Below are positions 2,625 to 63,628 of a stretch of DNA of 64,000 nucleotides, piece by piece. Position 1 is the stretch's first letter; every line of letters begins with the position of its first letter. Position numbers and translations under genes: made by a program. The DNA comes from Solobacterium sp. (GTDB taxonomy: Bacteria; Bacillota_I; Bacilli_A; Erysipelotrichales; Erysipelotrichaceae), in contig JAFUFO010000014.1 in the NCBI GenBank assembly GCA_017469885.1, positions 1 through 64,000 of the forward strand, read 5' to 3'. Under the pieces are notes generated by a model. The model was not told the origin of the DNA. It was given only the letters and a program-made list of their open reading frames with translations, and made no database searches.

Positions 2625-3092
2625 ATGAATGACAAAAACAATCTATCACACACAACATTTCGGTGCAAATATCACATAGTGATAGTGCCGAAATACAGGC
2701 GTATGGTGATTTACAACAAGTTGCGGGCAGACATAGGAAGTATCTTAAGAAGCCTGATAGAAAGGAAACCGGGGTGTCAGTTGTTGGAGGCAGAAGCATG
2801 TCCGGATCACATCCACATGTTGGTGGAGATACCGCCAAAATATTCCGTATCAGAGTTCATGGGATATCTGAAGAGTAAAAGTACGCTGATGATATTTGAA
2901 AGGCATGCGAACATGAAATATAAGTTTGGAAATAGAAAGTTCTGGGCACGTGGATATTTCGTGGACACTGTAGGAAGGAACGAAAAAGTAATCCGGGAAT
3001 ATATTCAGAATCAGTTGGAAGAAGACAAACTGTACGATCAGATGAGCATGAAGGAGTTCATTGACCCGTTTACGGGTGACCGGGTGAAATAA
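2625..3092 (+). CDS. tnpA: IS200/IS605-family transposase TnpA
   Basis: A 155-residue Y1 HUH single-strand transposase that cuts and joins hairpin ends of single-stranded transposon DNA. The metal-binding HUH motif is H62-I-H64 in PDHIHMLVEIP and the catalytic tyrosine is Y126 in the YIQNQ motif, with Q130 as the usual third metal ligand. Length matches full-size IS200 TnpA and the frame is intact, so the element may still be active. Translation is probably very low because the ribosome-binding site is in a hairpin. Confidence 0.93.
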   Translation: MNDKNNLSHTTFRCKYHIVIVPKYRRMVIYNKLRADIGSILRSLIERKPGCQLLEAEACPDHIHMLVEIPPKYSVSEFMGYLKSKSTLMIFERHANMKYKFGNRKFWARGYFVDTVGRNEKVIREYIQNQLEEDKLYDQMSMKEFIDPFTGDRVK

Positions 3093-3104
3093 AGCGATAA
3101 AGAG

Positions 3105-3195
3105 GCCCCTTTAAGGGGCAGCTTGTGATAGCGTTGCGGCTGTCGGGCTTCGGTGGCCGAAGGGCCTCCGCAACAAAAGGCCCTTATAGGGCCAG
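3105..3195 (+). other. Structured 3' non-coding part of the IS200-like element
   Basis: Between the tnpA stop and the right-end hairpin are three further stems: GCCCC/GGGGC at 3105-3119, GTTGCGG/CCGCAAC at about 3133-3175 enclosing GGCTTCGG/CCGAAGGCC-like pairing, and GGCCCT/AGGGCC at about 3179-3194. Such dense folding suggests a transcribed RNA or a terminator tract. Its function is unknown. Confidence 0.5.
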
Positions 3196-3250
3196 TGGAT
3201 ACCACCAGTTTTACTGGTGGTTATGATATCGCTTAAGAATGAAGAGAGAT

Positions 3251-3300: not shown

Positions 3301-4146
3301 TTATCCTTTCTGTCCTAGCAGTCCCAGCAGGAAGTCTTTCCAGAGCGGTGCCATCAGATAGTGGCCCATGCTGTTAGGGTGGATGCCTGGATCCTGGATG
3401 CCGTTTTCGTTGAAGTACTGCGCCCGGTCCGTATCGGAGTTGGGATCGAAGAGACCCGCATGGTAGAGATCCAGTACCGGAACATCATGCCTTGCGGCGA
3501 CTTCCATCAATAAGGACACATAGTGATCGCAGTCTTCTTTTGAAACGCCCCAGTACACAACCGCATCCTTGATACTGTCATATCCTGCGCCGAGATTCCA
3601 CGGGGTAGGGGTTGCGATACCGATTCTGATATCCGGTGCTTTCTCCCGGATCTTTTCGATCGTGGTGTTCATACATCCGCCGATCGTGTCGGTTCCTTCA
3701 TCTTCGGCAGTACCGAACGCAAAGCCGCGGCCAAGGTCATTGAAGCTTCCGAATATCGTCACAACATCCGCATCGGTGAAATCGATCAGATCGATCCGCT
3801 GATAGAATGTCTCATAATCCGGCGCAATCATATAGCCGGTGGAACTGCGGCCGCAGTTGACCACTTCGCACTGGAAGTCCTTCTGTACAAAGTCATAGTA
3901 GCTGACCTGTGCGGCCATTGTCTTATCGGTAAGGCTGTCTCCGATCAGGATCCATTTCACAGCGGAAATATCAAACGGGGTCGGTTCCGGTTCGGGTGTC
4001 GGCGCCGCAGTTTCAGCCGGCTCCGGAGTTGGTTCTTCAGCGGGCGGTGCGGTTTCTTCCGGTTCCTGTGCGGGCCTGTTCTGACAGCCGCAGAGAAGGA
4101 AGGGAATCAGACTGAATGTGAGTAATCTGCGGGTTGTAATATTCAT
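3301..4146 (-). CDS. SGNH/GDSL-family hydrolase lipoprotein
   Basis: A 281-residue secreted esterase/lipase-like protein probably anchored to the outer face of the membrane. It starts with a lipoprotein signal ending in the lipobox LCGC (Cys21), followed by a Pro/Glu/Thr-rich linker (residues ~25-57). The SGNH blocks are visible: GDSLTDK with nucleophile Ser71, the Gly/Asn block FGSFNDLGRG, and the C-terminal DPGIHPNSMGH with the catalytic Asp-x-x-His arrangement. Typical targets are acyl or acetyl esters on cell-wall or plant polysaccharides; the substrate is not evident. An ATG 13 codons further upstream is possible, but AAAGGAGG directly precedes the ATG at 4146. A - strand -10 box TATGAT lies at 4206-4201. 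Confidence 0.85.
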   Translation of the reverse strand: MNITTRRLLTFSLIPFLLCGCQNRPAQEPEETAPPAEEPTPEPAETAAPTPEPEPTPFDISAVKWILIGDSLTDKTMAAQVSYYDFVQKDFQCEVVNCGRSSTGYMIAPDYETFYQRIDLIDFTDADVVTIFGSFNDLGRGFAFGTAEDEGTDTIGGCMNTTIEKIREKAPDIRIGIATPTPWNLGAGYDSIKDAVVYWGVSKEDCDHYVSLLMEVAARHDVPVLDLYHAGLFDPNSDTDRAQYFNENGIQDPGIHPNSMGHYLMAPLWKDFLLGLLGQKG

Positions 4147-4299
4147 GCGGCCTCCTTTCATCCATAAGACGTCATGAGCAGTCATAACAGAAAAAACGAT
4201 ATCATACCTTCCGGAAAAAGAAAAAGAGACAGGGATGAAACAATGTCTGCAGGATAATCAATGATTCGCATGCATACCATGCAGGAATGTAAAGCTTAT

Positions 4300-4330
4300 A
4301 AAATGAAAACGGAATCCTTTCGGACTCCGT
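4300..4330 (-). terminator. Terminator at the 3' end of the predicted structured RNA
   Basis: ACGGAATCC pairs with GGACTCCGT around a 4-base TTTC loop, 8 of 9 pairs plus one mismatch. On the - strand it is followed by TTTTCATTTT; on the + strand it is followed by TTTTTT, so it could work in both directions. No protein gene on either strand ends here, so the likely client is the RNA read from 4993 downwards. Confidence 0.65.
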
Positions 4331-4335
4331 TTTTT

Positions 4336-4993
4336 GGCTCAGCTTGGGCATTACATGGGGGGTGCGCTTCTGCGTCCGGTGTTTCCGTTGACCGCTGCCT
4401 TCGGTTTCCTTCATGCATGGTCTTCGTCTCATTTGGTACCGTTCGCCGCAGCTCTTTCCAGCACTTGCGTCCTTTCGTTACCGCACCGCTTTATGGACGG
4501 CGCCCTTCACGTCTCTCAACCGCTCCTGCTGTGTGTATCTTTGCACCTTCGTCTTCACTTCCTTAACCCCAGCCTTCCGGGGCCCTTCTGTGAAATCGCT
4601 CTTTAGGTGTGCACGGTACACGGTGTGCTCCTTTGTCTTTCTGTTTCGGCTGTTTCCGGCTTTCGTTTCTGTTTTACGGGTGTGCTTACCACCTGCTGCC
4701 TCTCGCCCGCGGCCTCTTTTCCAAACGGACCATCCAGGTCCCCATCTTGCGATCGGAGCTCAAGCTCCCTCATCTTCTGGTCCGGACTCAGGTCCGGAAT
4801 TCTTCTGCCGGGAGTCCCAGCTCCCAACTGTTTCCGCAGGCCTCTGCACCTTCTTCCTTACTCCCTCCATAAGGAGGATCTTCATCTCCTGCAGGCTTTC
4901 CCTGCAAAATCTGTTGGCTGACTCCGCCATCTATAGGCGGCTTCTAACCTGGAATCCTGTGCTCTGCTTTTGCTGAGGTAATTGCAGTATGCC
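4336..4993 (-). ncRNA. Candidate large structured non-coding RNA (~660 nt, unclassified)
   Basis: No credible protein frame covers this stretch. It carries a row of compact hairpins: 4727-4741 (GGACC/GGTCC), 4755-4768 (GGAGC/GCTCC), 4781-4798 (TCCGGAC/GTCCGGA), 4810-4825 (GGGAG/CTCCC), 4864-4877 (CCTCC/GGAGG), 4890-4906 (TGCAGG/CCTGCA) and 4924-4940 (CCGCC/GGCGG). More stems are likely at ~4485-4505 and 4565-4582. The - strand is purine-rich with A-rich linkers and GAAA-type motifs, as in folded RNAs. GGCATTAC (4347-4354) can pair with GTATGCC (4987-4993) to close the whole molecule, and a terminator lies just beyond. A weak - strand promoter (TTGAAG, 16 bases, TAAAAA) is at 5048-5021. In size and style it resembles large bacterial RNAs such as ROOL, GOLLD or OLE, but I cannot assign it to any of them. 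Confidence 0.6.
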
Positions 4994-5259
4994 TTTCCTC
5001 AAAACCCATTTCAAGTAGGATTTTTAAACAAAACCGGTTTTCCTTCAAAAAAATTTGTGGGATGAAATGAAAACATTTTCTTTTCATGGATTTCGATTAC
5101 AGAAGGGCGGAAGGTGTTGTGTTTTCGCGGACATGTTCAGAAAAATATTATGCAATTATCCATACAGCTCTGTATATTCACGGAACAAAAAATAGAAAAC
5201 ATATTAATACATCCCATCAATAGTGACAGTTCTGAGGGATGTATTTTTGATCAGAGGGA
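4994..5259. other. AT-rich intergenic spacer
   Basis: No gene is visible. The stretch contains a weak - strand promoter for the predicted RNA (5021-5048), a small hairpin ATACAG/CTGTAT at 5162-5175, and a 10-bp stem AATACATCCC (5206-5215) with GGGATGTATT (5236-5245) followed by TTTG, which may stop transcription ahead of the SPFH gene. Confidence 0.5.
5206..5249 (+). terminator. Hairpin-T-tract upstream of the SPFH gene
   Basis: AATACATCCC and GGGATGTATT form 10 bp around a 20-base loop, followed by TTTTT. No + strand gene precedes it, so it either ends an unrecognised transcript or insulates the next operon. Confidence 0.45.
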
Positions 5260-5295
5260 TTGACAGAGAATTGAAATGATATCATATTGATATCA
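5260..5295 (+). promoter_or_regulatory. Promoter with two tandem TGATATCA palindromes
   Basis: TTGACA at 5260-5265 is a perfect -35 box; 17 bases later lies CATATT (5283-5288) as a poor -10. Two copies of the palindrome TGATATCA (5277-5284 and 5288-5295) sit 11 bp apart, one DNA turn, over the -10 region. This spacing suits a repressor binding one DNA face. The weak -10 also suggests an activated or regulated promoter. Confidence 0.5.
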
Positions 5296-5318
5296 GAATA
5301 AATCAGGAGGTTCAGTTT

Positions 5319-6308
5319 ATGAACGAAATTATTCTTAAAGGAAAAAACAACGGTTTCGCCGTACTGCTCGGTACGATCGCTATGTACATCCTGGCAATCC
5401 TTGGAATCTTCACCGGAAAGCCGCTGGTGATCATTCTGTGTATTCTCTGGCTGGCATTTGGCTGGATCCTCTTCTGCGGTCTCAAGGTACTGAAGCCGCA
5501 GGAAGCACTGGTGCTGACCCTGTTCGGTAAATACATCGGCACATTGAAAGAGGAGGGATTCTATTTTGTGAATCCGTTTGTGTCCTCGGTCAATCCGGCA
5601 GCTCACACCCAGCTTTCCCAGAGCGGGGATGTCAAGCAGGAAGGTCTTTCACTTCTGACCGGCGGGAATACCACAACGTCTCCGCAGGCATATTCCAAAA
5701 AGATCAGCCTCAAGGTCATGACGCTGAACAATGCACGTCAGAAGATCAACGATGTGCTCGGCAACCCGGTGGAGATCGGCATTGCGGTAACCTGGCGCGT
5801 GGTCGATACCGCAAAGGCAGTCTTCAATGTGGACAACTATAAGGAATATCTTTCCCTGATGTGCGACACCGCACTCCGTGACATCGTCCGTCTGTATCCG
5901 TATGACATGGCACCCGGCATTGACACGACCGGTGACGGCAGACCGGATGACGGAAGCCTCAGAGGCTCCAGCACGGTCGTTGCGGACCGGATCAAGGAAG
6001 AGATTCAGAAGAAGGTCGATAATGCGGGCATTGAAGTACTCGAAGCCCGGATCACCTATCTTGCCTATGCGCCGGAGATCGCGGCGGTGATGCTGCAGAG
6101 ACAGCAGGCCAGCGCTATCATTGACGCCCGCAAGATGATCGTGGACGGTGCCGTCGGTATGGTTGAGATGGCGCTTGACCGCCTGAGTGAAAACAATACC
6201 GTGCAGCTCGATGAAGAACGCAAGGCCGCAATGGTATCCAACCTGCTTGTGGTTCTCTGCGGCAACCATGATGCACAGCCCGTTGTGAATTCGGGAAGCC
6301 TGTATTGA
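5319..6308 (+). CDS. SPFH/band 7 (stomatin-like) membrane protein
   Basis: A 329-residue protein with two N-terminal membrane segments (about residues 13-33 and 34-53) followed by an SPFH domain (VLKPQEALVLTLFGKYIGTL through the VVDTAKAVFNVDNY and ILEARITYLAYAPEIAAVMLQRQQA segments). SPFH proteins form scaffolds in membrane microdomains. The C-terminus lacks the long coiled coil of flotillins. AGGAGG precedes the ATG. The stop codon overlaps the start of the next gene (TGATG), an arrangement often seen for this SPFH subfamily and its small partner. It heads a seven-gene cluster that also contains HflK and HflC. Confidence 0.85.
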   Translation: MNEIILKGKNNGFAVLLGTIAMYILAILGIFTGKPLVIILCILWLAFGWILFCGLKVLKPQEALVLTLFGKYIGTLKEEGFYFVNPFVSSVNPAAHTQLSQSGDVKQEGLSLLTGGNTTTSPQAYSKKISLKVMTLNNARQKINDVLGNPVEIGIAVTWRVVDTAKAVFNVDNYKEYLSLMCDTALRDIVRLYPYDMAPGIDTTGDGRPDDGSLRGSSTVVADRIKEEIQKKVDNAGIEVLEARITYLAYAPEIAAVMLQRQQASAIIDARKMIVDGAVGMVEMALDRLSENNTVQLDEERKAAMVSNLLVVLCGNHDAQPVVNSGSLY

Positions 6309-23322: not shown

Positions 23323-23351
23323 TTGACATGAATGATAGCGGGCAGTATGAT
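23323..23351 (+). promoter_or_regulatory. Strong promoter of the rplJ-rplL operon
   Basis: TTGACA (23323-23328), a 17-base spacer and TATGAT (23346-23351) make a near-consensus sigma-70-type promoter, preceded by A/T-rich DNA resembling an UP element. Transcription would start near 23358. Confidence 0.85.
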
Positions 23352-23357
23352 ATTGAT

Positions 23358-23512
23358 CGTTATCGATACCAAAGACAGTAACGGCGAAAGCTTAATCATG
23401 TTACCGAGGTTGAAAGTTTCATGTGTTTTAAGAACTTTTAAGCCCTTGCTGTCTGCGAGGGCTTTTATATCTTTACAAGGGTAGGCGATAACAGAAAGGT
23501 GAAGGTGAAGGA
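23358..23512 (+). promoter_or_regulatory. Ribosomal L10 leader with attenuator hairpin
   Basis: A 155-base untranslated leader before rplJ, the place of the L10(L12)4 autoregulatory element in Firmicutes; the segment TTAATCATGTTACCGAGGTT fits its kink-turn region. A 10-bp stem AAGCCCTTGC/GCGAGGGCTT (23440-23464, one G-U pair) followed by TTTTATATCTTT is a classic attenuator. Excess L10-L12 complex would be expected to favour termination. Confidence 0.8.
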
Positions 23513-63240: not shown

Positions 63241-63245
63241 AATCG

Positions 63246-63416: not shown

Positions 63417-63444
63417 ATTTCCTGTCATGGAGCTGTAACACAAA

Positions 63445-63579
63445 ACGTAGCGCCTGGCCTGCATGACCTGCAGGTGACGAGGACCGGGTATTTATCGAAA
63501 GATTCGGCGGATGACCCGGAGGCCTGATACGGCCTGAACAATGGGAAAAAACAGCCGGCGACGGCTGAACAGATCCATT
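63445..63579 (+). ncRNA. glmS ribozyme
   Basis: Self-cleaving riboswitch sensing glucosamine-6-phosphate. The core is clear: cleavage-site A63449|G63450 in TAGCGCC, stem P1 CCTGCA/TGCAGG, then GTGACGAGG, TTTATCGA and ATTCGGCGGATG as in Bacillus glmS, the pseudoknot arms CCGGGT/ACCCGG, the P3-like GGCC-TGATAC-GGCC and P4 CAGCCG-GCGA-CGGCTG with a GNRA loop. When GlcN6P is plentiful the message is cut and then degraded. Confidence 0.93.
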
Positions 63580-63583
63580 CGGT

Positions 63584-63628
63584 ATCCTCCATGACTGTTT
63601 TTCATATGAAACAGGAGGATATTTTTTC
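63584..63628 (+). terminator. Hairpin plus T-tract over the glmS ribosome-binding site
   Basis: ATCCTC (63584-63589) pairs with GAGGAT (63615-63620) and CTGTTT (63595-63600) with AAACAG (63609-63614). The ribosome-binding site AGGAGG (63613-63618) lies in the right arm. TTTTTT (63623-63628) follows immediately and the ATG comes next, so it looks like a terminator and a translational lock in one. Confidence 0.6.

Follow-up and report, generated by a model that had tools for sequence, protein, structure and literature searches.

Large bacterial RNAs and the Solobacterium locus

To our knowledge, very few bacterial RNA families of the size considered here are known, and what ROOL and GOLLD do is still an open question. 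The following description of ROOL is taken from the literature. ROOL (RF03087) is a large stand-alone RNA of the Bacillota, about 600 nt in length, with paired ends and without a known protein partner, and one of its type specimens comes from the cow rumen (PMC12286853). Phages and prophages are reported to encode it, frequently close to tRNA islands (PMC12286853). A homo-octameric nanocage is among the traits that characterize ROOL.

The stretch of DNA analyzed here (the window; 64,000 nt) is the start of a contig from a Solobacterium-group genome (Erysipelotrichaceae), and the named relatives of this genome in public-genome records are uncultured Solobacterium from reindeer and from cattle duodenum. 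Genes for a PfkB-type kinase (1341-2450, + strand), an IS200-type transposase (2625-3092, + strand), and a GDSL lipase (3301-4185, - strand) are followed by the RNA region and a gene for an SPFH/Band 7 protein (5319-6308, + strand). The gap between the last two genes (4186-5318; 1,133 nt) is without a credible gene, as a sequence-only reading had stated for more than 1 kb here, and holds a single mechanical open reading frame (187 amino acids, + strand). Strong hairpins lie at 3092-3240, directly after the transposase gene (2625-3240 for gene and hairpins together), and the window also includes an ordinary glmS riboswitch (63438-63591) and a ribosomal protein L10 leader (23351-23477).

The RNA predicted in this gap resembles ROOL in being large, in having its ends closed by pairing, and in its host group, and ROOL is present in the genus. 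Unlike ROOL, it adjoins an SPFH gene, and the nearest tRNA, which is the only one in the window (at 63245), is 58 kb away; neither this tRNA nor the neighboring genes (PfkB, IS200 transposase, GDSL lipase, and SPFH) indicate a phage, prophage, or tRNA-island context of the ROOL type. GOLLD and OLE, too, are large ornate RNAs from bacteria and are comparable in length or longer. The similar length, the closed ends, the shared host group, and the occurrence of true ROOL in the genus would favor placing the RNA as a divergent member of one of the large families already known (ROOL, GOLLD, OLE, or raiA), but the window RNA matched no Rfam family at E values up to 10 under permissive filters, and its homologues matched none at E values up to 5 beyond subthreshold hits to unrelated models. 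The covariance models of GOLLD, OLE, and the raiA motif gave no match, no gene for an OLE-associated protein was found among the neighbors searched, and the conserved linkers of ROOL were not seen. The ROOL model, which served as a positive control, matched 8 of 70 genomes of the same genus at 188 to 339 bits (cutoff, 99.1 bits), and the same search found no ROOL in the three genomes that carry the RNA (G000, G001, and G068). Membership in a known family is therefore very unlikely on these searches. The sequence-only reading had left the choice between a new member of the ROOL, GOLLD, or OLE type and a new class; the lack of an Rfam match fits the former less well and the latter better, and the RNA very probably represents a new family of large, ornate noncoding RNA that is specific to this lineage and matches no catalogued RNA family. 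Two ROOL genes were observed in tandem on the same strand in two genomes (G004:C93:29743-30861 and G070:C5:65126-66235).

Homologues and distribution

A genus-wide DNA search recovered a close copy of the RNA in G068 (locus L092; about 88 to 90% identity), and a local search recovered a diverged copy in G001 (L021), with 287 of 567 aligned positions identical, upstream of SPFH in the same order and on the same strand. The homologous regions that the earlier reading had called for are thus found in two relatives, beside SPFH in each; the RNA adjoins this gene in three species and occurs as a single copy in the window genome. All six indels between the window and L092 are of 1 nt each, so neither strand has been kept as a reading frame. 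These three sequences, two of them close, are the only sure full-length homologues. A covariance model of the 3′ domain (model R1) identified no carriers beyond these three among the 316 genomes of the order, and the carriers known so far are three related gut bacteria of ruminants. Weaker matches of this model elsewhere (E values of 0.005 to 5 per genome) were attributed to chance; most of those inspected overlap long open reading frames, and none resembles the full-length profile any further. In public collections the promoter pattern matched two Solobacterium relatives, and its other matches (two in Bacteroidota and a viral one within phage genes) were also taken as chance. Phage and plasmid collections gave no match to the RNA, and pattern scans of viral sequences for relatives, checked with R1, yielded nothing.

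Promoter, terminator, and closing helix

The three copies share a promoter of the form TTGAAA/TTGCAT-17-CATACT. In the window, the -35 hexamer TTGAAA is located at 5009-5014 (- strand); at equal spacing, L092 has the same hexamer and L021 has TTGCAT. The -10 hexamer CATACT at 4986-4991 (- strand) is followed by GCAATTA; GGCATACTRCAATTA is kept in all three homologues. An intrinsic terminator is found at 4333-4306 (- strand), in agreement with the one previously noted at 4300-4330, and its stem is kept in L021 with two compensatory changes. Conservation is conspicuous in the diverged G001 copy at the promoter, at the CAATTA that follows it, and at the terminator. From promoter and terminator we infer a transcript of about 675 nt (4979-4303, - strand), with homologues at about 1230-1907 in L092 and about 508-1128 in L021, both on the - strand. 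We regard it as highly likely that 4979-4303 is a real noncoding RNA gene.

The ends of the predicted RNA would be joined by a closing helix, P1, in which CUCAGC (4977-4972) pairs with GCUGAG (4343-4338) immediately before the terminator. P1 forms in the minimum free energy (MFE) structure of each of the three RNAs folded singly, as CUCAGC/GCUGAG or, in L021, as CUCAACG/CGUUGAG, where a G-C pair is replaced by A-U. This is the supported closing helix. The one proposed earlier (4347-4354 with 4987-4993) was rejected: on the 5′ side it runs into the conserved -10 box (4991-4986), on the 3′ side the homologue at 90% identity has a different strand (CCATGTAATGCCC versus CATGTGACGCTTG), and the helix is lost in G068.

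A cis-acting leader or riboswitch of the GDSL lipase gene was also considered, as the lipase is encoded on the same strand and the terminator lies about 120 nt upstream of its start. The downstream neighbors change between species, which makes a role in cis unlikely: the lipase in the window is replaced at L093 by a convergent PfkB kinase gene, which the RNA faces with no lipase there, and by a Na/Pi cotransporter at the related locus L006 (see below). We consider a leader of the lipase gene extremely unlikely.

The 5′ hairpin array

The 5′ part of the predicted RNA (4940-4727, - strand) contains eight hairpins with 5 bp or more each, whereas dinucleotide shuffles gave 2.2 ± 1.1 and none of 500 reached eight. 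They are located at 4924-4940, 4887-4909, 4863-4878, 4835-4848, 4807-4828, 4781-4798, 4755-4768, and 4727-4741 (all - strand). In L092 the third is rearranged, the stem of the fourth is re-paired (GCAG/CUGC versus GCG/CGC), and the fifth keeps its stem with a changed loop. The row of at least seven hairpins of the same size and spacing described from the sequence alone is thereby extended to eight of similar size, but their spacing is not strictly regular. The purine richness noted for this strand was borne out over the RNA (A, 32%; G, 33%; U, 13%).

Such a row of similar hairpins would be expected of an array that titrates an RNA-binding protein, in the manner of the CsrB/RsmZ sponges. However, members of that class carry GGA in most loops, while here it is present in only 2 of 8 (CTGGGA and TGGAT), both of which have lost it in the homologue at 90% identity, and a conserved, nonrepeating fold makes up more than half of the RNA. 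The lack of conservation of the GGA loops makes a sponge of the CsrA type unlikely.

Middle and 3′ domains

The middle domain includes a helix of UUUCAC (4590-4595, - strand) with GUGAAG (4553-4558, - strand), the two strands of which read GCCG and CGGC in L021, and it encloses a hairpin, GGCCCCGG/CUGGGGUU (4565-4584, - strand), similar to one in the probable relative at L006. The conserved 3′ domain (model R1; 4364-4458, - strand) contains helices 4446-4438/4380-4372 and 4426-4419/4393-4386 and a conserved linker, CCAAAUnAGACGA. When this domain was aligned by sequence only, 97.4% of cells were paired and 5 of 13 pairs had changed on both sides, versus no two-sided change in any of the controls in which the partners were slid by 1 to 3 columns.

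Structural alignment of the whole RNA between the window and G001 scored 206, above all 60 controls (174 ± 8; maximum, 192), in which mismatched letters were permuted so that identity was kept and covariation destroyed; the two-sided changes in the full alignment exceeded those of the controls only moderately (48 versus 32 ± 8). In the close pair, the single-sequence fold has 17 pairs broken by substitutions versus 28.5 expected (P = 0.001); two-sided changes there are few and do not exceed chance (P = 0.23). Region 4296-5060 has an MFE z-score of -4.1, and in all three copies the - strand folds 21 to 35 kcal/mol better than the + strand. Covariation, which the earlier reading had named as the support to look for, is thus present as compensatory changes in the 3′ domain and the terminator stem, together with the whole-RNA score above every control. 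Covarying helices across homologues agree with membership among the large structured noncoding RNAs. Comparison of the copies establishes, at the level of sequence, their homology, their compensatory pairing, the likely strand, and their noncoding nature. The 187-amino-acid frame on the + strand could be read as a trace of a decayed gene or repeat with chance hairpins, but this is scarcely credible given the frame-breaking 1-nt indels, the compensatory changes, and the conserved promoter and terminator.

Possible relatives

A structured RNA of about 440 nt, named "d," is located in G009, a genome of the same genus and a fourth species, at L006 (690-1209; G009:C292:2411-2930; - strand). It resembles the window RNA in its equal position and strand beside SPFH, in having its own promoter (TTGCAA), and in a terminal helix (CCUCG/CGAGG) immediately before the terminator. 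Over about 150 nt it shows colinear similarity to the middle domain, which reaches a P value of about 0.003 against shuffles in the case of the window and of G068 and is not significant for G001. Unlike the window RNA, "d" is only about 440 nt long, lacks the 5′ hairpin array, is multicopy, and has an rRNA-like -35 region, which matches that of sequences in G025 that we take to be rRNA operon leaders. The covariance models of the two RNAs do not find each other, and that of the "d" 3′ domain matches only G009 and G021 among the 316 genomes. Place, strand, termini, and one stretch of sequence suggest that "d" is probably related to the window RNA. The rRNA-type -35 motif was also sought in the window genome, where the matches read fell in coding or unremarkable sequence.

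In both G009 and G021, the latter a fifth species, "d" is multicopy (L006, L144, L153, L154, L156, L158, L160, and L161), with compensatory changes among copies in one hairpin and contigs that break inside copies. These copies and assembly breaks, along with the IS200-type element nearby in the window, might mean that the window RNA is one diverged copy of an RNA element that is mobile or repeated. We hold this to be decidedly unlikely: the RNA is single copy in the window genome and adjoins SPFH in three species, and neither target repeats nor a linked transposase was found. Separately, a gene for an RNA of about 250 nt was observed in G016 (L146, 1500-1798, continuing into L177, 1-85), with the same rRNA-type -35 region and a terminator at its end. 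Its hairpins follow one another at a period of 36 to 38 nt, their stems unrelated and the linkers between them constant; part of the row folds at a z-score of -5.8, and the L146 portion of the gene has no Rfam match at E values up to 0.1.

Proposed mode of action and significance

As a whole, the locus is probably best explained as an independent noncoding RNA gene whose folded product acts in trans by shape. A sigma-A type promoter would start and an intrinsic terminator would end an RNA of about 675 nt, its ends joined by P1, with about eight short 5′ hairpins, then a middle domain, and finally a conserved 3′ domain that contains covarying helices and purine-rich linkers. We infer that action in trans is likely; like ROOL and GOLLD, the RNA could be abundant and have a structural or scaffolding role, perhaps in oligomeric form. 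This is the favored guess, and an oligomeric scaffold specifically is a tentative suggestion. Equally speculative is the idea that ruminant Solobacterium-group bacteria, in lineages without ROOL, carry a new and rapidly evolving family of giant RNAs that is anchored next to an SPFH gene and possibly fills the ROOL role, with related copies in sister species that are shorter and multicopy and have an rRNA-type promoter.

A further, unrelated family of giant RNA in a genus in which only some species have ROOL would give a natural comparison, in which features common to two unrelated giant RNAs would point to function. With homologues at both short and long distances, and with multiple copies of some probable relatives, a search of metagenomes could allow the structure to be refined quickly.
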